A DNA stretch of 64,000 bases, taken from positions 496,001 through 560,000 of the forward strand of contig WLWQ01000002.1 of NCBI GenBank assembly GCA_012103535.1, written 5' to 3'. The DNA comes from Pseudomonadales bacterium. GTDB taxonomy: Bacteria > Pseudomonadota > Gammaproteobacteria > Pseudomonadales > Pseudohongiellaceae. Of this stretch, positions 2,513-12,718 are shown in pieces (the first letter of the stretch is position 1; the number at the start of each line of letters is the position of its first letter). Position numbers and translations under genes: made by a program. The notes under the pieces are model-generated. The model was not told the origin of the DNA, made no database searches, and worked only from the letters and a program-made list of their open reading frames with translations.

Positions 2513-3397
2513 ATGATTAGCGCCAAGGAACATCCGAAGAAAACCGTTTCTGTGAACGGGAAAACCATGAGCTATGTGGAGATGGGTGAGGGTGATCCCA
2601 TTGTCTTTCAGCATGGCAATCCTACTTCTTCCTATTTGTGGCGGAACATCATGCCTCATCTGGCTGATCAGGGCCGTTGTATTGCGATTGATTTAATTGG
2701 GATGGGGGATTCGGATAAGCTGGATGATTCTGGTCCTGACCGTTACACACTGATGGAACATCGCGACTATTGGGATGGGGCGCTTGATGCAATTGGTGTT
2801 AAGGATAACGTTACCCTGGTTATTCATGACTGGGGCTCGGCCCTGGGTTTCGATTGGGCAAATCGGCATCGAGAAGCGGTAATGGGCATTGCTTATATGG
2901 AAGGCATTGTTCGACCGGTGTCTTGGGATGATTGGCCTGAGGCTGCGCGAGGAGTTTTTCAAGGATTTCGTTCTCCAGCCGGAGAAGACATGGTTTTGGA
3001 GAAAAATGTATTCGTGGAAAGAGTGCTACCTGGCTCTATAATCAGAGAATTAACTGAAGAGGAAATGGGGGTATACCGGAAGCCGTTTGCTAACGCCGGT
3101 GAAGATCGTCGCCCAACCCTGACTTGGCCTCGACAAATTCCAATTGAAGGAGAACCAGAAGAGGTGGTTGAGCTCGTGCAAAGTTATGCGGATTGGCTTT
3201 CACAATCCAATGTGCCTAAGTTGTTTATTAATGCTGAGCCTGGTGCCATTCTAATTGGCCCACAACGTGAATTTTGTCGCTCATGGCCAAATCAGAAAGA
3301 GGTGACAGTAGCTGGTAATCATTTTTTACAGGAAGACTCTCCTGACGAAATTGGGCAAGCTATTGCAGAATGGCGCAGAGAGTTTAACAATGCGTGA
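2513..3397 (+). CDS. Haloalkane dehalogenase (HLD-II, LinB/DhaA-like)
   Basis: Alpha/beta hydrolase of 294 residues that should cleave carbon-halogen bonds of haloalkanes to an alcohol and halide in the cytoplasm. All five subfamily II signature residues are present at a constant offset of two from LinB numbering. They are nucleophile D106 in HDWGSALG, halide-binding N36 in HGNPTSS, halide-binding W107, acid E130 in YMEGIV, and base H270 in GNHFLQED. The cap region contains the expected FQGFRSP segment. There is no signal peptide. It is followed after 24 bp by a gene for an exported acidic protein on the same strand. The complete catalytic pentad makes a generic hydrolase unlikely; the natural substrate is unknown. 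Confidence 0.93.
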
Positions 3398-3421
3398 CCA
3401 TACGGCGAATGAGCAGGATTC

Positions 3422-4036
3422 ATGAAGCTATTTGATTTTCCAATTAGTCGAACTCAGGTACTTCTGCAGCATGGAGTATTGCTGTGTGTTGCTGTGCTAA
3501 GTTTTTCGTTTCTCAACGCGCAGGGGAATATTGGTTCGCAGATGGTTGGTGCATGGGTAATCAACGATGACCTGTCTGACAACTCAGATGACCAAGTGGA
3601 AGAAGCGATAGAAGCTGGAGGTGGTGATGGTGGCCGTGGATTCTTCAATCGGCGTGAAGATTTTTATCGCGGCGGGCCGCCAGAGCACGAGCTCTATGAC
3701 CGACTCACTTACGATGATGTATTAAGTATCGAATTTTCCGAACCTGAATTTCGCTTCACCTATGAGGACAATTACATAAGAGTATTCCACACCGATGGTC
3801 GCCGACGCCGCACGACAGCCAATGACTTTTTTGAAGGTGGTGGATCAGATTGGTCGGAAGGGAATATTGAAGTGGAAGCTCTGGTTGTTGAAGCCAGACC
3901 GCGTGACGGCGGATTCGCTACAGAAATTTATACGTTGGAGAATGACGGCAATCGGCTGCGCATCGAAATGCTGATCCAACCACTCTCGTTCCGAGAACCA
4001 ATCGAACTCGTACGCTACTACGATCGCGTAGAATAA
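3422..4036 (+). CDS. Exported acidic/Gly-rich hypothetical protein
   Basis: A protein of 204 residues with an N-terminal hydrophobic segment (about residues 14-33, ending SFLNAQG) that looks like a signal peptide. The mature part begins with GAWVINDDLSDNSDD. It has an Asp/Glu-rich stretch, then a Gly/Arg-rich patch (GGGDGGRGFFNRRED), and ends with beta-strand-like sequence resembling lipocalin-type small exported proteins. I recognise no named family. It follows the dehalogenase gene by 24 bp and may be co-transcribed with it. It converges on the DsbA-fold gene with no spacing between the two stop codons. Confidence 0.7.
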   Translation: MKLFDFPISRTQVLLQHGVLLCVAVLSFSFLNAQGNIGSQMVGAWVINDDLSDNSDDQVEEAIEAGGGDGGRGFFNRREDFYRGGPPEHELYDRLTYDDVLSIEFSEPEFRFTYEDNYIRVFHTDGRRRRTTANDFFEGGGSDWSEGNIEVEALVVEARPRDGGFATEIYTLENDGNRLRIEMLIQPLSFREPIELVRYYDRVE

Positions 4037-4645
4037 CTATTGTTGAGAAGAAATCTCTTCTTCAACATCCCGCAAACGGTCCTTACCAAAAAACATTTCA
4101 TTACCAACGAAGAATGTTGGCGAACCGAAATTGCCTTTTTCAACGGATGCCGAGGTGCTATCAATTAGCATTTGCTTAACTGCAGGATCTTGCGTGCCAG
4201 CGATGATGTCAGCAGTAGGCAGGCCGTATTCGTTCAGTGCTTCTTCGATCACGGCCGGATCACTCATGTTTAACCCGCGTTCCCACATGCATTGATACAT
4301 GGCTTCGATATAGTCTGCTTCAAAGTCTTTTCCTAATGCGTAGCAGGCGTCACGCATTATGTGCAGAGTGTTGACTGGAAAATGGGGATTGCGCGCATAT
4401 TTGTCAATGGTGTGTTTGGCGATAAAGCGTTTCGTCTCTCGTGAGTTGTATTCCTTCTTATTTTTAACTTCTGCAAATTGTTCCATCGGAGATCTGTTAT
4501 TGGTTGCCTTAAAAACACCGCCTAGCAGAATCGGAACGTATTTAAACTTTATACCTGTTCTTGCCTCGATTCCTGGAATCACACGATGACTAAAATAGGT
4601 ATTTGGGCTTGCGAAATCATAATGAAACTCTACTTCTACTGCCAT
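4037..4645 (-). CDS. DsbA-fold 2-hydroxychromene-2-carboxylate isomerase / kappa-class GST-like protein
   Basis: A protein of 202 residues of the thioredoxin-fold family that includes HCCA isomerase and kappa GST. HCCA isomerase is a glutathione-dependent isomerase of aromatic degradation. The N-terminal motif HYDFASPNTYF and the late FGSPTFFVGNEMFFGKDRL segment, with its cis-Pro SPTF, are diagnostic. The catalytic residue is Ser-type (DFASP) rather than a CxxC pair. It is cytoplasmic, with no signal peptide. Its ATG overlaps the stop of the upstream methyltransferase-like gene as TAATG, so translation is probably coupled. It is the last gene of the 11659-4037 run and the only member without an export signal. 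The substrate is unknown. Confidence 0.88.
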   Translation of the reverse strand: MAVEVEFHYDFASPNTYFSHRVIPGIEARTGIKFKYVPILLGGVFKATNNRSPMEQFAEVKNKKEYNSRETKRFIAKHTIDKYARNPHFPVNTLHIMRDACYALGKDFEADYIEAMYQCMWERGLNMSDPAVIEEALNEYGLPTADIIAGTQDPAVKQMLIDSTSASVEKGNFGSPTFFVGNEMFFGKDRLRDVEEEISSQQ

Positions 4646-5469
4646 TAGTCTGGTTTCCTGAATTTCAAGGTCATGCGATCGCTCTCACCAATGGCAGTAT
4701 ATTGATCTCGGTTCTCATCGCCGAGTCTATAGCTCGGAGGTAGAGTCCAGACTCCCGCCGGATATTCCGTTGCATCCTTTGGATTGGCATTTAATTCTGA
4801 AGAGGCAACAAATTCGAAACCTGCTTTGGCGGCGATTTCTTTTACATACTCTTCTGAGACATAGCCAGTAGTTTCCATGACTTCCATACTAGCGCCAGGT
4901 AATGCTCGGTGTTCAACTACTCCAAGAATGCCGCCGGGTTTTAATGCCGCATAAAACGTTTCAAAGTATTCGAGTTCCTGGCCAACCATTATCCAGTTAT
5001 GCACATTCCGAAATGTCATGGCGAGGTCTGCACTTTCCGGTGGGGCTATGGCTACTTCATGAGGCGGGTCGATATGTCTTACCGTAATCTTGCCGTAAAT
5101 CTCCGGGTTGTCCGCTAATTTTCGCTCAAAGCCCTCTAGACTGTTAGCCGCATAGTTCAAAGCTGAGTTAGGCGAAAAATGTGCCGCATAAAATTTGCCT
5201 TCGGCAGCCACATAGGGGGCAATGATTTCTGTGTACCATCCACCGGCTGGTAAGATTTCAATTACTGTCATGTCTTTCTGCAGGCCAAAAAATTCCATAG
5301 TTTCCACTGGATGTCTCGGTTCGTTGCGAGCTCTATTTTCTTCGCTGCGATGATGTCCGTTCACTATTGCGCCAAGAGTAAGCTCACTACCCAAATGGTG
5401 ATCTGCAAACACTGAAGTGGGAACAATAATCGCGAGTGTTAGAAACGCGGCCTTAATGTATTTAGTCAT
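4645..5469 (-). CDS. Exported methyltransferase-fold protein (COG4798-like), paralogue A
   Basis: A protein of 274 residues with a clear signal peptide (residues 1-22, cleavage after SVFA) before a SAM-methyltransferase-like domain. The motif I equivalent is VIEILPAGGWYTEIIAPY. The motif LAMTFRNVHNW and the late strand KPGGILGVVEHRA are typical of the COG4798 predicted methyltransferases. The C-terminus ends GVWTLPPSYRLG and SDRMTLKFRKP, almost identical to the end of the paralogue at 8954-9790. SAM is not expected in the periplasm, so the activity there is puzzling. It is the fifth gene of the operon, 37 bp after the NHL gene, and is coupled to the DsbA-fold gene. The family call is strong; the reaction is unknown. 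Confidence 0.87.
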   Translation of the reverse strand: MTKYIKAAFLTLAIIVPTSVFADHHLGSELTLGAIVNGHHRSEENRARNEPRHPVETMEFFGLQKDMTVIEILPAGGWYTEIIAPYVAAEGKFYAAHFSPNSALNYAANSLEGFERKLADNPEIYGKITVRHIDPPHEVAIAPPESADLAMTFRNVHNWIMVGQELEYFETFYAALKPGGILGVVEHRALPGASMEVMETTGYVSEEYVKEIAAKAGFEFVASSELNANPKDATEYPAGVWTLPPSYRLGDENRDQYTAIGESDRMTLKFRKPD

Positions 5470-5506
5470 AATCTTAGCTCCGAAAAAGTCCTTTAGTTAG
5501 CACGTC

Positions 5507-6526
5507 CTAATTACGAACGTACTTGCTTACTTTTCTGTCGCCAACACTGGCGCCCCAAATCACCCCGTTGTCATCCACTGCAATACCTTCAGGAAAACTG
5601 GTGCCGCCATGTGGTCCCGGGTCGGGAATAAAATCGATAATTTCTCCATCCAGAGTGCCAACATAAATTCCTCGATGCCAACCAGGATTAAAACCGTATT
5701 GGCCTTCTGCTGCTCGTGATTCGGAATCCACTGCATAGAGCATATTGTCATGGATTCTTACGCCGCTAGGTCTGCCCCAGTGAGCCCAGATAGCTTTCAA
5801 AGTGCCGTCAGGATTCAGTATATGCATGCGATTATTGGTGCGATCACCTACATAGATGTTGCCTCGCTCATCGACGGCAATGGCATGGGGCCCTTCAAAT
5901 TGCAGTGGACCGTAACCTTTTTCACCCCAGGCTTCGATAAATTCACCTTCGGCGGTCATGTGTACAATGCGCCGATTTGAATCGGGATCAATGTGGCCAT
6001 CGACTATATATAGAGTGCCATCTGGCCCGATCGCTAAATCGGAAGGCTCATTAAATTCGCCAGGGCCATCGCCGCGGATACCCGGTTCACCTAGTTCAAT
6101 CAGAATTTCTCCCTGCTGATTGAATTTGAAAATTTGATTGCCTTTCTCACCGTCGATCACACCGGCATCAATAATCCAGAGATTGTCGTCGTCATCAACG
6201 ATAATTCCGTGGGGCCAGACGAACATTCCAGCACCAAAACTGGTGAGAATCTCTCCTTCCGGGTTGAACTTCAAAATGGGATCTACATTGTTCTCTTCGC
6301 AGGCGCCCTGATTACCGCCGCAGCGTTCAAATACCCAGATATTGCCTTGGGAATCGATGTCTATGGCATTGCCTGATCCCATTTGTCGCCCATCAGGCAT
6401 TTGCACCAGGTTTTCATGCATAGAGTAGTTATTTGGGTAATCCGGCAGCACGGTATTTTGCTGTGCATGTGCCGCAAGTGTGGCTGCCAGAGCAATTGTG
6501 AAAATACCAAATTTTCTGAAGTTCAT
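5507..6526 (-). CDS. Exported NHL-repeat beta-propeller protein
   Basis: A protein of 339 residues with a signal peptide (about residues 1-21, ending AAHAQ). At least five NHL-type blades follow, with signatures such as GNAIDIDSQGNIWVFE, HGIIVDDDDNLWIID, PSDLAIGPDGTLYIVD, PHAIAVDERGNIYVGD and FPEGIAVDDNGVIWGA. Six-bladed propellers of this kind include peptidyl-amidoglycolate lyases, lactonases and pure binding scaffolds; I see nothing that decides between these. It is likely periplasmic. It lies between the DUF5916 gene (92 bp upstream) and methyltransferase paralogue A (37 bp downstream) in the same run, so it probably acts on the same substrate. Confidence 0.88.
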   Translation of the reverse strand: MNFRKFGIFTIALAATLAAHAQQNTVLPDYPNNYSMHENLVQMPDGRQMGSGNAIDIDSQGNIWVFERCGGNQGACEENNVDPILKFNPEGEILTSFGAGMFVWPHGIIVDDDDNLWIIDAGVIDGEKGNQIFKFNQQGEILIELGEPGIRGDGPGEFNEPSDLAIGPDGTLYIVDGHIDPDSNRRIVHMTAEGEFIEAWGEKGYGPLQFEGPHAIAVDERGNIYVGDRTNNRMHILNPDGTLKAIWAHWGRPSGVRIHDNMLYAVDSESRAAEGQYGFNPGWHRGIYVGTLDGEIIDFIPDPGPHGGTSFPEGIAVDDNGVIWGASVGDRKVSKYVRN

Positions 6527-6618
6527 TGTTGTTTCTCTGCTTTTCTTATTAAGGATTGGATATAGATTAAATGTACGTTGCTTTTAACTCAACTAAGTCC
6601 TGCGCTATTTTTTTAAAA

Positions 6619-8886
6619 TCAAATCTGAAAGAGTCGATTAATTTTTATTGCCCAACCTTGATTGCGCAGCTCAAAGCTGTCTGGTCGGTCAAATGGATTG
6701 GTGTCTCGATCATCGCTATAAACAACGAACAATTCACTACCTGGCGCCCACTCCCAGCGGAAGCGAAAATTGGAACTTAGTGAGTTTTGAGTAGAGTTGT
6801 ATTGTACGAGACCACTAAAATACATACGCGGAGAAATGGTGTACGTGACCCTTACTCGCCCAAGCTCGGTGCGGAAATCTCCTTCAGGTAATTTTACCTT
6901 GTTAAAAGAGTAACTCGGTTCCACGGATAGCTGCGGCGATAATTCAATTCTGCCAGCACTGAAACCTATTGCTTCATTGGTGCCGCTCCAGAAATCTCCA
7001 CCTCGATAAGAGAGTCTTCCGCTAAAGTCTCGCTGTGTTCCCCAGCGATACGAAACTTCATAGCTGGTGAAATTGTAGTCGCCGGGTTGAAGAGCCACAT
7101 CCGGTGCGATTTGGAAAGGTCTTGTGAGCATTTCGAACTCATCATTCAGGCTGATCTGGAAAGCGTCACCTTGTTCAAACTCGGTGGTAAAGCTTAAGCC
7201 GTGAGCTCGAGTCTCGAGGACGTCTTCATCGGCTGACCAATAAGATTCAGTGTGGGCCAACAACACGAAGCGCCTAATATTTTCACTCGATGCAATGCGG
7301 GGGCTGAAGCGAGCGAAGCCATCGAATTGTTTAAAGTTGTCGCGCCGCTTGAATCCTATTTCAGGATTAAAATTGTCTTCTACCACAACGTAACCTGTTC
7401 CGAGCCCGTAGCGATCCCCATCATAGGTAAAGTTACCCATGTAACTCTTGTCCTCGCCGCTTAGTCCTGGCGTATCAGTTTTTGCAGCGTAAGTAGCAAT
7501 TTCAAAGTCATCCAGGAAATTAAATTGTCCATCGATGCCATAAAGTTGATTCGATCCGTCGCCAGTTACAGATTCTGATCTGTCAGTTACAAGTACGCCG
7601 ACTCTACTGCGGCTTAGTATGTCTCGCTTAATTCGCAACACCGAAAATTCGGTGGATTCAATCCCATCAATGTCACTGCCGTCAGTTCCAATGGTGAGTG
7701 CGCCAATATCAAAGTCTCCAATCTTTCCGGTTAGACGACCACCGGCGTTTATGGGCACAATCTGCCCCTGCTCCAAACCAATGCGTCTACTAAAGAACAT
7801 CGTAGGAACGTCTAAAGTTCGAGGTGCGGTGAAATCAAAATTACCTTCACCTTCAGGAAAAAATTCCCGCTTTTCCGGAAAAAACAAATTAAAGCGAGTG
7901 AGGTTTACCTGGCGTTCATCGACTTCCACCTGGGCAAAATCCGTATTGTAGGTAAAGTCCGCGGTAAGGTTATTAGTAAGACCAAGTTTTACATCAAGAC
8001 CAGCTTCGCCATCGAAGTCATCATTAAAAGGAGGAGAGGCAAGTCTATTCGTGGTTACGGTGCCTAAGCCATAGGGTTTTATTTCCAGATTAAAATTCCG
8101 TGGTGGCACTTCGAGTTCAGTTAAGTCAGCAGCTTCTGAAATACGCCACATCCCGGCAACAAGACTATTGCCCAAGGCTGCAGAGATCGGAATTTCAGTT
8201 AAATAAGACGCTTCATTAAGGCGCCGAATAATTCGACGAAACTGTAACCCCCAGGTTTGTTCGGCTCCTGGATCGTAGCGCAAAGAGCGAAACGGGATCT
8301 CCATCTCTACTGTCCAACCACCATCGAAACGCCCAACCCGTGAATCCCAGACGATATTCCAATCAAAGTTGACGCCTCGACCTCGGTCGCCTTCATTAGA
8401 GATTGCAAAATCCGAAAATCCACCAATAGGTGAGACCAAAAACGCAACGCCGTTTCGTCGGTCGAGAAAGGTATCCAGCATTACCGAAAACGAATCATTG
8501 GTGCGTAGTTGAAAAGTGTCGCGGCGCATTTCATTGGCAACCCAATCTTCTTCCGGCACAGACTCGTAATTTTTGGCAGTGACATAGATGGCATCGTCAT
8601 CGTAGAAAACCCAGACTTCAGTTTTCTCGCTGGCCTGATCACCTTCATCGGGAATTTGTTGAATGAAATCAGTAATTGGTGCGACGTTAGAATAAATAGC
8701 TTCATCCAATTCGCCATCGATGGTGATATCGCCATCGAATCTTACTGCACGAACTGTTATTCGGCCGTCAGCATTTTCGCCAACGACAACTTCTTGAGCG
8801 CTTGAAGTAATTACAGTGAACTGCAATCCGAGGGCAGCAATTATTAGCAGCAAGAGCCGCTGTGGCTTAGATTGTAAAAGGGGCAA
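6619..8886 (-). CDS. DUF5916 outer-membrane protein with N-terminal CBM9-like domain
   Basis: A protein of 755 residues with a signal peptide (about 1-31, ending SSAQE). The N-terminal domain (about 45-230) resembles the CBM9-like fold: RFDGDITIDGELDEAIY, then VWVFYDDDAIYVTAK and GWTVEMEIPFRSLRYDPG. The rest is DUF5916, recognised by FFPEKREFFPEGEGNFDF and FFSRRIGLEQGQIVPI, and consists of alternating aromatic beta-strands expected of an outer-membrane barrel. It ends with INRLFQI, a terminal aromatic barrel signature. The family often neighbours catabolic or peptidase genes, but its function is not established. Here it could be the surface binding or uptake component for the substrate handled by the other exported members. 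Confidence 0.9.
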   Translation of the reverse strand: MPLLQSKPQRLLLLIIAALGLQFTVITSSAQEVVVGENADGRITVRAVRFDGDITIDGELDEAIYSNVAPITDFIQQIPDEGDQASEKTEVWVFYDDDAIYVTAKNYESVPEEDWVANEMRRDTFQLRTNDSFSVMLDTFLDRRNGVAFLVSPIGGFSDFAISNEGDRGRGVNFDWNIVWDSRVGRFDGGWTVEMEIPFRSLRYDPGAEQTWGLQFRRIIRRLNEASYLTEIPISAALGNSLVAGMWRISEAADLTELEVPPRNFNLEIKPYGLGTVTTNRLASPPFNDDFDGEAGLDVKLGLTNNLTADFTYNTDFAQVEVDERQVNLTRFNLFFPEKREFFPEGEGNFDFTAPRTLDVPTMFFSRRIGLEQGQIVPINAGGRLTGKIGDFDIGALTIGTDGSDIDGIESTEFSVLRIKRDILSRSRVGVLVTDRSESVTGDGSNQLYGIDGQFNFLDDFEIATYAAKTDTPGLSGEDKSYMGNFTYDGDRYGLGTGYVVVEDNFNPEIGFKRRDNFKQFDGFARFSPRIASSENIRRFVLLAHTESYWSADEDVLETRAHGLSFTTEFEQGDAFQISLNDEFEMLTRPFQIAPDVALQPGDYNFTSYEVSYRWGTQRDFSGRLSYRGGDFWSGTNEAIGFSAGRIELSPQLSVEPSYSFNKVKLPEGDFRTELGRVRVTYTISPRMYFSGLVQYNSTQNSLSSNFRFRWEWAPGSELFVVYSDDRDTNPFDRPDSFELRNQGWAIKINRLFQI

Positions 8887-8953
8887 TTTTTTTACTACTT
8901 TATTGGTGAATAGTGAATGCTCGAAGCAGCCGCGTTCAAAACGCAGATTATAT

Positions 8954-9790
8954 TCACAGCGGTTTGCGGAACTTCAACGTCATGCGATCGGACTCACCAA
9001 TGGAAGTGTATTTCGCTCGATCCGTTTCACCCATTCTGTAACTCGGTGGTAATGTCCAGACACCTTCCGGGTGATCCTTGGTATCATTTGCATTGGCATT
9101 AATTTCAGAGGCAGCAACGGTTTCGAAGCCGGCGGCTAGAGCAACCTGTTTAACGTGGGCTTCGCTGACATAACCGCTATCGATCATTTCCTGAAAAGTG
9201 GCACTGTCCGGAGCGCGGTGTTCTACCACACCTAAAATTCCGCCTGGTTTGAGCGCGGCGTAAAAAGTAGCGAAAAACTCCTGATCCAACCCCAGACCCA
9301 TCCAGTTATGCACATTACGAAAAGTGAGCGCCATGTCAGCACCTTCCTGGGGACCAATGGCTGTCTCATTCGGTGGTAATAAATGACGCACAATCGCTTT
9401 GCCGTAAAGTTCAGCATCGCCAGCCAACATCGCTTCGAAGTTTTCTAAACTGCGTCGTTGAAAATCGTTTCCCGAATTAGGTGAAAAATGGGCACCATAG
9501 TAGCGGCCATGATCGCGCATATAGGGTGCGAGGATTTCTGTATACCAGGCGCCGGAAGGACCGATCTCGATCAGAGTCATGTCTGGGGTGAGGCCAAAAA
9601 ATTCCAGAGTCTCTATTGGGTGTCTAAATTCATTGCGAGCGATATTTTGCGGACTGCGATGATTACCCGTCATTACTTCTTCAATAGTAAGAAGAGATGC
9701 GCCGCCATGATGATCGGCAGATACTCCGAACCAACTCAGCAAGGAGAAGCTTATAAAAGCAATTAGACTTGTCGTTTTTAGTCTCGTCAT
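8954..9790 (-). CDS. Exported methyltransferase-fold protein (COG4798-like), paralogue B
   Basis: This is a close paralogue of the protein at 4645-5469, with the same order of elements: signal peptide, ADHHGG, HRSPQNIARNEFRHPIETL, a motif I-like IEIGPSGAWYTEILAPY, LTFRNVHNWMGLG, KPGGILGVVEHRAP and SDRMTLKFRKPL. I chose the ATG at 9790 over the one at 9796. It aligns with the paralogue's N-terminus and has GAGA at a usable distance, whereas AAGAGA directly abuts the earlier ATG. Two exported copies of this fold flanking a propeller and an outer-membrane protein suggest either two sequential steps or a heteromer. The gene follows the Ldi-like gene by 30 bp. Confidence 0.87.
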   Translation of the reverse strand: MTRLKTTSLIAFISFSLLSWFGVSADHHGGASLLTIEEVMTGNHRSPQNIARNEFRHPIETLEFFGLTPDMTLIEIGPSGAWYTEILAPYMRDHGRYYGAHFSPNSGNDFQRRSLENFEAMLAGDAELYGKAIVRHLLPPNETAIGPQEGADMALTFRNVHNWMGLGLDQEFFATFYAALKPGGILGVVEHRAPDSATFQEMIDSGYVSEAHVKQVALAAGFETVAASEINANANDTKDHPEGVWTLPPSYRMGETDRAKYTSIGESDRMTLKFRKPL

Positions 9791-9820
9791 TTCCATTCTC
9801 TTGTTACTAGATAAATATTC

Positions 9821-11659
9821 TTAAGTGGGTCCTGCACAGCAAGGACATCCTGTTACTTTACTAGTCATCACTGATTCGGCAGCTTTCGCATTCTGCTCTG
9901 CCGTACGTCTTATCGTCGAAGCTGAGGCTGCGCTGGCAATTGTAGAAGGATCTGGTTGGTTGAATGCTACTGTCTGCCCGAAATATCCAGTGTAGATTTC
10001 GTATTGGTGCTCCCCAATATCGGTTGGTACGCGAATGGAATTTGTATCAATTACCTGGACATTACTAACGGTTGTTCCATCGCGTATGACAATAGCTTCC
10101 TCGGCATTAGGCAGATTAGTAATCTGCCAGCTCGTAGACTGACCGGAGGCATTACGATCGCCAACGTAAGTGCCTATATGCAGAACGCCGCTTTCCTTGT
10201 CATTCCAGGCTTTGTCCACACCCAGGTTTGGATAGTCTACGCCTTCGAGTGTTGGAGCCGTGTACTTGTCCAAGTTTTTCACTTTAAAAGCTTCTATCCA
10301 GTCTCCTTCGCCAATCTCATTGATCATCTGTTGGGCTGAAGCTTGACCTCTTGGCCAAGGCTCACCGTTATTAAACCACCAACCAAATCTATCCATGTTT
10401 TCGCCAAACCATTTTGGTTCGGAGAATTGTTCGGCAGCAGCAGCAAGGCGCTCAACTGCGACACTGTCGCCCAGGGCTTTGGCCATCACCATGCCTTGTG
10501 CACTGGGAGTAATTTCTCGTGCTGGGTCGTGCCATCCGCTTGCATTGGCAACTGCTTCGTAAATTTGCGTTGCAAGTTCCGGCGATTGTGGCAGTAAATA
10601 GAATGCTGCTCCGGTACCTGCTCCGGCACCGGGAAAGTTCACCTTGAATTCTTCCAGCGGATCGTAATAGAGGGTCATCCACTCGATCTGATTCTGATTG
10701 TTAATTCCCATGTAATTGTCACGGGTAAACTCAACCCAATCTTCGAAAGCGCCATGGGCATTGGTCACTCCTAATTGATCAGACAGATAAATTCCCAGAC
10801 CTGCAGCGCTGTTGCAGATCGGCCAAACCTTGGTGTTCTCGCAATGGGGTCCTTCTGGATGATCGATATATTGCTGATGCAGATGTTCAACGATGCGTGG
10901 TTGTGTCCACTCAAAATGTTCATTCTCGTAACCAGCGATTTCCCAAGGCCGCTCCCATTTATCATCGCCAGAAACATACTTATAAATTGAAAGAAGCAGA
11001 TTTAACCAACCCCGAAAGAAAAGGTTGCCATCAGCGCCGATTGGATCCCGCTGCAAGCCCCAGGGTTCCACACCGTTTGCGGTCCAGCCTGGTCTATCGT
11101 AATTACCGCGAACTCGCTCCGGCCATGCCTGATATCCCGGCGCATTGCCTGCGTTATAGTTTTCCCGTTCGGGACTCGGCCCAATAAAAGTATTCCAGTC
11201 GATAGCGGCCCAATAAGAGGTATGTCGGGTTGCCAGTTCATCCAAAACACGGGTATAGACCTCGCGCCAAGCCGGAGTTTGGTCAGCCATAAGCAATACA
11301 GCATAGCTGGAATCGGAAAGATCAAAGCGCGGATAGCTAAGCATTGGTGCGGCAGAGTATTGATCCCACCAGGGGTGGGGACGGTCGTCCCGCACCGTAA
11401 AGTCGATTTCTCCCCTTGGGATGTTGATACCCCAGGGCCGTTCGATGTTTTCGGAGTAATCCCAGTTATCAGCGGTGGTCGCTTTTTCCCATATGAAACG
11501 CATCCAGCCTTTGGTGCGCTCATTGTGACTGGGATAAAGGTTAGCGGAACTCCTACGCTGGGTTGTGCTGGTGCAAGCGGCCAGCCCAGCCGATCCGCCG
11601 ATTACCGCCGCAGACGACTTAAGAAAACCACGTCTTGATTGCTTAAATTGCGTACCCAT
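9821..11659 (-). CDS. Tat-exported linalool dehydratase/isomerase-like protein
   Basis: A protein of 612 residues, much longer than Castellaniella linalool dehydratase/isomerase (about 400). It starts with a Tat signal (SRRGFLK, residues 8-14) followed by LAAC (26-29), a possible lipobox, so it may be a Tat lipoprotein. The central (alpha/alpha)6-type region resembles Ldi. FFRGWLNLLLSIYKYVSG (about 214-231) matches its helix, and C273 and C282 (HCENTKVWPICN) reproduce the nine-residue spacing of the two active-site cysteines of Ldi. The His that I recall in the Ldi GHLNL segment is Trp218 here. The C-terminus carries an extra domain of beta type and ends in a CPCC cluster. It is the promoter-proximal gene of the six-gene run. 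A hydratase, dehydratase or isomerase of terpenoid-like alcohols is inferred, not shown. Confidence 0.8.
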   Translation of the reverse strand: MGTQFKQSRRGFLKSSAAVIGGSAGLAACTSTTQRRSSANLYPSHNERTKGWMRFIWEKATTADNWDYSENIERPWGINIPRGEIDFTVRDDRPHPWWDQYSAAPMLSYPRFDLSDSSYAVLLMADQTPAWREVYTRVLDELATRHTSYWAAIDWNTFIGPSPERENYNAGNAPGYQAWPERVRGNYDRPGWTANGVEPWGLQRDPIGADGNLFFRGWLNLLLSIYKYVSGDDKWERPWEIAGYENEHFEWTQPRIVEHLHQQYIDHPEGPHCENTKVWPICNSAAGLGIYLSDQLGVTNAHGAFEDWVEFTRDNYMGINNQNQIEWMTLYYDPLEEFKVNFPGAGAGTGAAFYLLPQSPELATQIYEAVANASGWHDPAREITPSAQGMVMAKALGDSVAVERLAAAAEQFSEPKWFGENMDRFGWWFNNGEPWPRGQASAQQMINEIGEGDWIEAFKVKNLDKYTAPTLEGVDYPNLGVDKAWNDKESGVLHIGTYVGDRNASGQSTSWQITNLPNAEEAIVIRDGTTVSNVQVIDTNSIRVPTDIGEHQYEIYTGYFGQTVAFNQPDPSTIASAASASTIRRTAEQNAKAAESVMTSKVTGCPCCAGPT

Positions 11660-11763: not shown

Positions 11764-12078
11764 TTAGTTAATACTGATGGAAGGTACGTAGCGACCGTGA
11801 TTGTAGCCGCAGAAATGTTGCGGTAAATCGGGATGATTAATCTTGCTGGGTTCTTGTTCCGGTTGCAGGTTCTCTTCTGCTTCGTAGGTTTCATAGGCAG
11901 TATTGTGAACCAAGATTCGAAACCAGGGCTTATTGCGCGGCGGCCGACTCTTGGCGACTTGATCGTACCATTCTTCGCTTAACCGAAATTCCGGGTCAAC
12001 ATCTACAATGACGCCTCGGTAGCCATAGAGTCGGTGCTGCACCACCTGTCCCAGGTGGAAGTTTCCTTTTAAAGTCAT
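11764..12078 (-). CDS. hspQ: Heat shock protein HspQ (YccV-like)
   Basis: A protein of 104 residues matching HspQ in length and motifs: FHLGQVVQHRLYGYRGVIVD at the N-terminus, PEFRLSEEWYD and PWFRILVHN. In E. coli, HspQ is a heat-induced hemimethylated-DNA-binding protein that acts as a Lon specificity-enhancing factor. It is cytoplasmic. AAGGA precedes the ATG by about 6 bases. The 5' leader contains two hairpins (12096-12112 and 12123-12139). It is on the same strand as the six-gene operon and 104 bp upstream of it, but nothing else links them. The C-terminus (HFCGYNHGRYVP) differs from the enterobacterial version. Confidence 0.88.
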   Translation of the reverse strand: MTLKGNFHLGQVVQHRLYGYRGVIVDVDPEFRLSEEWYDQVAKSRPPRNKPWFRILVHNTAYETYEAEENLQPEQEPSKINHPDLPQHFCGYNHGRYVPSISIN

Positions 12079-12095
12079 AACAATCCTTGTTACCA

Positions 12096-12139
12096 GAACA
12101 CATCCTGTGTTCCTTTACTGCTCCTATATTCAGTATAGG
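12096..12139 (-). promoter_or_regulatory. Two adjacent hairpins in the hspQ leader
   Basis: GAACAC-ATCCT-GTGTTC (12096-12112) and CCTATA-TTCAG-TATAGG (12123-12139) are perfect 6-bp stems with 5-base loops. They lie between the hspQ start and the divergent thioesterase gene. They could be operator sites or mRNA structures. The function is a guess. Confidence 0.4.
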
Positions 12140-12228
12140 TAGAGCATTGAACTATCGCCAACTATCGAAGCCAGAAAAATTAAGATAGGCTAGGGAGCCT
12201 CTGAATAATTCTATGACAGCTCTGGCCT

Positions 12229-12624
12229 GTGGCAAACCCATTCAAATTACAGATGAAAGTTCGCGATTACGAGTGTGATATGCAAGGGATTGTTAATAAC
12301 GCCGTTTATCAGAACTATTTGGAATGGGCGCGGCATGAATATTTATCCAGTCGAGGAGTTAGTTTCGCCGAACTTACGCAACAAGGTGTAATCATTGTTA
12401 TGGTTCGAGCTGAAATTGATTACAAACAATCCCTGCGAGCAGGAGACGAATTTAAAGTAAGTGTCATTGCCAGTCGGCCTTCAAAAGTTAGATTGATGTT
12501 CGATCAGGAAATTCGAAAATTGCCAGCAGAAGAGCTAATGGTAAAGGCGCTGATTACGACCACCGCAGTAAATGATAGGAATAAGCCTTATTTTCCTGCG
12601 GAACTCGAGAACTTAATGGAATAA
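12229..12624 (+). CDS. YbgC/FadM-like acyl-CoA thioesterase (hotdog fold)
   Basis: A 4-hydroxybenzoyl-CoA thioesterase-family protein of 131 residues that would hydrolyse an acyl-CoA in the cytoplasm. The signature VRDYECDMQGIVNNAVYQNYLEWAR contains the catalytic Asp of the family (YECDMQGIVNN). The strand EIDYKQSLRAGDEF and the late RLMFDQEI complete the hotdog pattern. No ATG suits the frame, and the first plausible start is GTG at 12229, without a clear Shine-Dalgarno site, so the exact start is uncertain. It is divergent from hspQ and followed by the oppositely oriented STAS gene. Confidence 0.85.
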   Translation: MANPFKLQMKVRDYECDMQGIVNNAVYQNYLEWARHEYLSSRGVSFAELTQQGVIIVMVRAEIDYKQSLRAGDEFKVSVIASRPSKVRLMFDQEIRKLPAEELMVKALITTTAVNDRNKPYFPAELENLME

Positions 12625-12718
12625 AAAAGCTCTCAAACAAAGTGTAAAGGCATAATGAACGAACAGGATGTTCCGTCGTTTTAATAGGGAGCTGTATCAC
12701 GAAGTAATTTGAAATTAA

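Follow-up and report, generated by a model that had tools for sequence, protein, structure and literature searches.

An LDI-Fold Exported Protein with a Cysteine Tail at the Head of a Mosaic Operon, and Its Possible Tie to a Soft Metal

What does an exported protein with the fold of linalool dehydratase/isomerase (LDI) do at the head of a tightly packed six-gene block? We addressed this question in a 64,000-nt stretch of a Pseudomonadales bacterium (contig WLWQ01000002.1; hereafter the window), where the block occupies positions 4037..11659. To our knowledge the LDI fold is known only from monoterpene chemistry, and a first-pass annotation of the window had the six proteins jointly importing and processing a monoterpene-like alcohol in the periplasm. 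Many close relatives of the Ldi-like protein adjoin mercury-transport genes, and its substrate may therefore be mercury or some similar metal rather than a plant oil. Our preferred reading, given a probability of roughly 0.36, makes it a thiol enzyme that is exported and linked to a soft metal, probably mercury, and whose gene was inserted into an older operon.

Active site, cysteine tail and MerP/MerT neighborhood

The Ldi-like protein matches PF18566 at 47.5 bits (gathering score 26.1) and has the LDI fold, with an (alpha/alpha)6 barrel (residues ~41-464), a beta domain (~479-556), a linker and a helix (587-599) preceding a C-terminal CPCC tail. Its cysteines are residues 29, 273, 282, 605, 607 and 608, and the catalytic pair of LDI is kept (Table 1). 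By alignment, LDI His129 is replaced by Trp218 and Met125 by Phe214, both LDI residues being part of the active site. The capping disulfide of LDI (Cys48-Cys101 in the numbering of PMC6600392) has no counterpart in the window protein; the portion of that paper available to us describes the cap with its cysteine pair and numbers residues one below the 171/180 of the PDB titles.

We compared this protein with 66 loci recovered by a search of genome contigs, using patterns derived from the window protein that favor near relatives. Tails were counted and trees built from 61 of the resulting 67 Ldi sequences (window included), the six left out being split, cut or not a single open reading frame (ORF) of more than 540 aa. 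The CxCC tail is found in 60 of these 61 full-length rows and the vicinal CC in all of them, and it reads CCAG in 30, while none of 697 other ORFs from the Ldi loci carries a CxCC tail. MerA, the mercuric reductase, ends in SCCAG or SCCAA in the six loci where it was read (L103-L106, L124, L153). Further afield, a PF18566 search of 398 genomes of the phylum returned three matches including the window's own, the other two without the tail, and a plasmid search returned two Streptomyces records only.

At 21 of the 66 loci the genes immediately after Ldi, in the same orientation, are a MerP-like gene whose reading frame contains a UGA (UGA-MerP) and then MerT; in one of these (L030) the MerP-like protein matches HMA at 59.1 bits and MerT matches PF02411 at 101.9 bits. 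The UGA sits at the first metal-binding position (NMT-UGA-xxC). Across 45 MerP places of the window's family it occurs in 28, from 27 genomes, and the other 17 lack a stop; within the match, three of the 28 contain a TAA or TAG as well. Selenocysteine tRNA (tRNA-Sec) scores over the cut-off of 47 bits, just above which a few hits may be other tRNAs, in 93 of 137 genomes of the window's family, 86 of them at 59.5 bits or more. That level is reached in 24 of the 27 UGA-MerP genomes, and the window's own genome scores 62.4 bits. In a look for a SECIS element, 21 distinct sequences were seen to share, about 15 nt past the UGA, the motif GUUGC-CGUGC-GCA(A/G)C, which lies inside conserved coding sequence and whose predicted folds vary. 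We presume that UGA-MerP is a selenoprotein in which the UGA would be read as selenocysteine.

The same 137 genomes were searched separately for Ldi, MerT (PF02411) and MerA, which were found in 63, 38 and 14 (over cut-off), respectively. Of the 63 genomes that have Ldi, 27 also have UGA-MerP, against none of the 74 lacking Ldi (Fisher p = 1.7e-11); within the genus the counts are 27 of 62 and 0 of 22 (p = 4e-5). Both values ignore kinship: related genomes are not independent, and many of the named loci and numbered genomes belong to the same organisms. The stronger point is physical adjacency, as UGA-MerP adjoins Ldi in 23 of the 27 genomes and lies on another contig in the remaining ones (G250, G256, G266 and G280). 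Among 194 genomes of the order, the sole UGA-MerP match is in a genome that also has Ldi (G137). MerT occurs in 26 of the 63 Ldi genomes, adjacent to Ldi in 23 and without MerA over cut-off in 22; only 4 of the 63 have MerA over cut-off at all. Without Ldi, MerT is found in 12 of 74 genomes, 10 of which have MerA over cut-off; in the other two, a MerA fragment lies beside MerT at a contig end (G220) or MerT begins 4 bases into its contig (G320). In the window's family, then, MerT accompanies either MerA or Ldi.

Three further loci add variety to this picture. G273 has another UGA-MerP at L153:6101-10240, within a mer operon that also contains merR, merT, merP and merA (MerA end SCCAG); its gene follows one for a MerC-like membrane protein (by eye) and precedes merR. 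At L154:27-4082 (G280) UGA-MerP lies beside YHS and heavy-metal-binding proteins and a thioredoxin-like protein (by eye), which hints at a broader role in metal handling. The MerT that follows Ldi at L024:10199-10435 (G289) has two in-frame stops (TAG, TAA) and is perhaps decaying.

If the protein is indeed a soft-metal enzyme, the Cys273/Cys282 pair would act on a substrate held by the barrel, with the flexible CxCC tail servicing the pair in the manner of the CC tail in mercuric reductase. The metal would most likely be Hg(II) or an organomercurial, which the active-site pair would bind or free; the tail would then take the metal, and UGA-encoded MerP and MerT, where present, would carry it inward. 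As no MerP or MerT was found in the window's genome, the tail there would pass its load to another thiol carrier. The fold, the conserved residues, the tail, the gene neighborhood, the co-occurrence and the mosaic history are observed; the identity of the metal, the reaction, the direction of transfer, the insertion of selenocysteine and any role of the other five block proteins we infer.

The block and its mosaic history

The six genes lie on the minus strand, tightly packed and at the positions given by the first-pass annotation, whose list of gaps also stands apart from the first, which measures 24 bp and not 30 (Table 1). Export-type starts are visible by eye in five of the six proteins, as annotated, the DsbA-fold protein being without one.

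Table 1. Coordinates of the block, its key residues and its neighbors in the window, with the MerP-like gene of a related locus.
Feature	Position	Strand	Remarks
Ldi-like exported enzyme	9821..11659	-	612 aa; Tat-type start; Pfam PF18566
Cys273	10841..10843	-	counterpart of catalytic Cys171 of CmLDI; invariant in 30 aligned rows
Cys282	10814..10816	-	counterpart of catalytic Cys180 of CmLDI; invariant in 30 aligned rows
C-terminal CPCC tail	9836..9847	-	Cys605, 607, 608
Exported protein A, putative methyltransferase fold	8954..9796	-	280 aa; no Pfam match; 57% identity to B
DUF5916 outer-membrane-type protein	6619..8886	-	755 aa; TTG start; PF19313, 66.5 bits
Exported NHL beta-propeller	5507..6526	-	339 aa; PF01436, 65.3 bits
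Exported methyltransferase-fold protein B	4645..5469	-	274 aa; fold from AlphaFold model
Cytoplasmic DsbA-fold protein	4037..4645	-	PF01323, 89.9 bits
Convergent neighbors	2513..4036	+	haloalkane dehalogenase (2513-3397); exported protein of no known family (3422-4036)
MerP-like gene with in-frame UGA, between Ldi and MerT	L030:11883-12218		20 further loci alike

Far from being confined to the window, the gene set recurs in other genomes, with the complete six-gene order in L006, L007, L008, L031 and L032. Full or partial operon-type arrangements account for 12 of the 66 loci (L004-L008, L031-L034, L038, L041, L046), and nine more (L043, L045, L048, L050, L052-L055, L062) pair Ldi with protein B, in most cases together with the DsbA-fold gene, making 21 of 66 in all. 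In 24 loci, some on contigs cut short, Ldi has neither MerPT (MerP with MerT) nor a methyltransferase partner beside it, and in none of the 66 does it have both MerPT and operon partners; as several contigs are short, these absences count for less. One MerPT locus (L023) has a 28% methyltransferase match ~9 kb off on the opposite strand, and in L034, L038 and L041 three opposite-strand genes lie between Ldi and protein A.

The operon occupies a genus-wide chromosomal site, which runs from a DUF255 protein and a thioesterase through the operon to the convergent pair (the protein of no known family and haloalkane dehalogenase) and an acyl-CoA synthetase. The dehalogenase is 80-94% identical in 10 syntenic loci and 40% identical in L005. 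We picked nine stretches around protein-B matches outside Ldi loci, and the site was seen in part or in full in seven of them (L128-L134), with Ldi in none of the seven; L135 and L136 have protein B only. In L128 (G294), from a genome without an Ldi match, the A, DUF5916, NHL, B and DsbA-fold genes are all present. L129 has NHL, B, DsbA and an A that is broken in two, L131 has B alone, and each of L130 and L132-L134 has the B and DsbA pair. Between B and the DsbA-fold gene, L128 also carries a short-chain dehydrogenase-like gene (11900-12634; by eye) that is absent in the window.

Phylogenies tell of different histories within the block. The 13 operon-type rows of the Ldi tree were rejected as one clade (approximately unbiased test, p = 2.5e-4, quick tree), and the window's group falls inside a 41-row group that includes 19 of the 20 MerPT rows. 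Window-type loci (the window and L005-L008) were likewise rejected as one clade in the DUF5916 tree (p = 1.9e-4) and in the NHL tree (p = 0.0055). Between the window and L031, identity is 88% in DUF5916 and NHL and 68% in Ldi; between the window and L007 it is 82% in DUF5916, 86% in NHL and 81% in Ldi. Together, the trees and the pairwise identities indicate that the history of Ldi is separate from that of the rest. The block is thus a mosaic, an older operon at the front of which a gene of the Ldi family, with a history of its own, stands in some lineages. That Ldis of different lineages occupy one slot hints at a working link.

Pfam matches over cut-off were obtained for the Ldi, DUF5916, NHL and DSBA proteins and for neither methyltransferase-fold protein. 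The best curated Pfam for protein B, Methyltransf_23, scores 16.2 bits against a cut-off of 27, and the AlphaFold model of B has a class I methyltransferase (Rossmann) fold, which protein A probably shares, given its identity to B. The COG4798 label is that of the first-pass annotation; no search here assigned it. Methyltransferase-family matches occur in 136 of the 137 family genomes, with 10 matches in the window's own, and we accordingly rejected the methyltransferase partners as a key to function. The DsbA-fold protein is presumably of the GST-kappa/HCCA-isomerase type, going by its DFASPNTYF start. The DUF5916 protein has an additional CBM9-like match under cut-off, the haloalkane dehalogenase matches NF002938 at 451 bits (cut-off 241), and neighbor families c2 and c11 have no Pfam match. 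A promoter scan was uninformative, giving 6 sites against 13.0 in shuffles, i.e. rarer than chance, and no terminator-like minus-strand match falls between the six genes, with three inside genes.

Weighing the proposed soft-metal enzyme against its rivals

Several observations count against a mercury-handling enzyme. UGA-MerP is missing from 36 of the 63 Ldi genomes, and 45 of the 66 loci have no MerPT beside Ldi, including all 12 operon-type loci. The window's own genome (G000) gave no MerT match (PF02411) and no MerP match at E 1e-8, and its best MerA match, at 387 bits, is below the cut-off of 454. Import of Hg(II) without MerA makes little sense unless another reductase acts. Three UGA-MerP genomes (G256, G315 and G318, the last 94% complete) have no tRNA-Sec over cut-off. 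In G280 the UGA-MerP adjoins a YHS-domain metal ATPase (L154, by eye), which makes a metal other than mercury possible. The tail itself is disordered in the structural model (pLDDT <50), and the model therefore gives no contact between tail and active site. It is also retained in Ldi loci without MerPT, and a CSCC tail ends an Ldi paralogue that has no export signal (L111), so that the tail cannot serve solely for hand-over to MerP. Lastly, the tail is absent from a Streptomyces homologue (43%) whose neighbors include hydrolase genes and one for an enoyl-CoA hydratase, a setting that fits an organic substrate.

The L111 paralogue (L111:7152-11273; G278) is 554 aa long and has as neighbors a RidA-like protein, DUF899 and a 203-aa protein that by eye resembles the one beside the Streptomyces homologue. 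An SCP2-like carrier seen by eye beside distant Ldi homologues (P0003, L111:8806-9414) has no Pfam match and was not used as evidence.

Equal in standing to the metal reading is one in which Ldi dehydrates or isomerizes some lipophilic organic alcohol, which need not be a monoterpene. In that case the CxCC tail would keep the thiols reduced in the oxidizing periplasm, or shield them from metal, while MerP and MerT would guard a thiol enzyme against mercury poisoning. In ribonucleotide reductase a C-terminal cysteine pair re-reduces the enzyme, a model for such a tail. The LDI fold with its catalytic pair, the persistence of the tail without MerPT and the distant homologue among hydrolase and enoyl-CoA hydratase genes all agree with this, as does the requirement of CmLDI for reduced Cys170/179 and its sensitivity to oxygen (PMC6600392, as far as its text was available). 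However, His129 and Met125 have given way to Trp and Phe and the capping cysteines are gone, and an organic substrate by itself does not explain why UGA-MerP in the family is confined to Ldi genomes.

A bolder form of the metal reading strikes us as unlikely: that exported Ldi-like proteins make up a new class of (organo)mercury-processing enzymes, unrelated to MerB, in oxic marine bacteria mostly without MerA. In these enzymes, C-Hg or Hg species would be cleaved or bound by the periplasmic cysteine pair and Hg(II) removed by the MerA-like CxCC tail, and selenocysteine-containing MerP together with MerT would take over. Ldi, MerPT and the operon genes might also be neighbors by chance or co-transfer without a common function, as Ldi occurs at differing sites and often has neither partner. 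The tight same-strand order, the restriction of UGA-MerP to Ldi genomes and the Ldis of more than one clade in the same slot speak against this, and we consider it quite unlikely. Most improbable is the joint monoterpene pathway of the first-pass annotation, which we rejected as the leading explanation: it draws on the recurring six-gene order and the LDI fold, but the gene histories differ, the other five genes occur without Ldi in L128, Ldi stands just as often before MerP and MerT, the methyltransferase matches are unspecific and the active site is altered. Its narrower idea, that Ldi itself isomerizes or dehydrates a terpenoid, gains a little from the kept catalytic pair and loses by the changes around it.

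Should the tie to a soft metal be real, marine bacteria would have put the LDI fold to use in soft-metal chemistry, at loci overlooked by mercury surveys, which usually count merA and merB. Were the substrate organic instead, the catalytic cysteine pair, its mobile CxCC tail and a metal chaperone dedicated to it and encoded with a UGA would together still make a new variant. The block also illustrates how a neat-looking operon can turn out to be a mosaic, with a first gene whose past differs from that of the others.

Comparison with known systems

In a literature search that misses many journals, including the selenoprotein-neighborhood papers of Haft and colleagues, no paper turned up that links linalool dehydratase to mercury, and none on COG4798 or DUF5916; others may have noticed the Ldi–selenoprotein neighborhood before us. 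A selenoprotein MerP and a putative mercuric transport protein figure in the available portion of a 2008 study of ocean metagenomes (PMC2398784), and a mercuric transport selenoprotein in parts of later reviews (PMC9312934, PMC13188914).

Compared with Castellaniella defragrans LDI (PF18566; PDB 5hlr/5g1u), the window protein is 15% identical, has Trp and Phe for His129 and Met125 and lacks the capping cysteines; it adds a Tat-type signal, the beta domain and the CxCC tail, and its relatives are found with MerPT. NF045683, a MerT/CopZ fusion-like heavy metal transport selenoprotein, is matched by MerT and MerP of L030 (72 and 77 bits), although there the genes are separate, score under the 375-bit cut-off and have Ldi upstream. 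The Sao (selenocysteine-assisted organometallic) systems, named in a legend of PMC10418091, are alike by description, as the accessible text of PMC13188914 describes presumed organometallic chemistry that involves selenoproteins and a Cys-Cys terminus. With the mer operon, the shared features are the MerP and MerT homologues that follow Ldi in 21 of 66 relatives and the vicinal C-terminal CC as in MerA, where such a pair is a known signature according to the part of PMC3466566 at hand. The differences from the mer operon are that MerA over cut-off is missing in 23 of the family's 27 UGA-MerP genomes, that the window's genome is without a MerP or MerT match, and that the MerP that accompanies Ldi carries a UGA.

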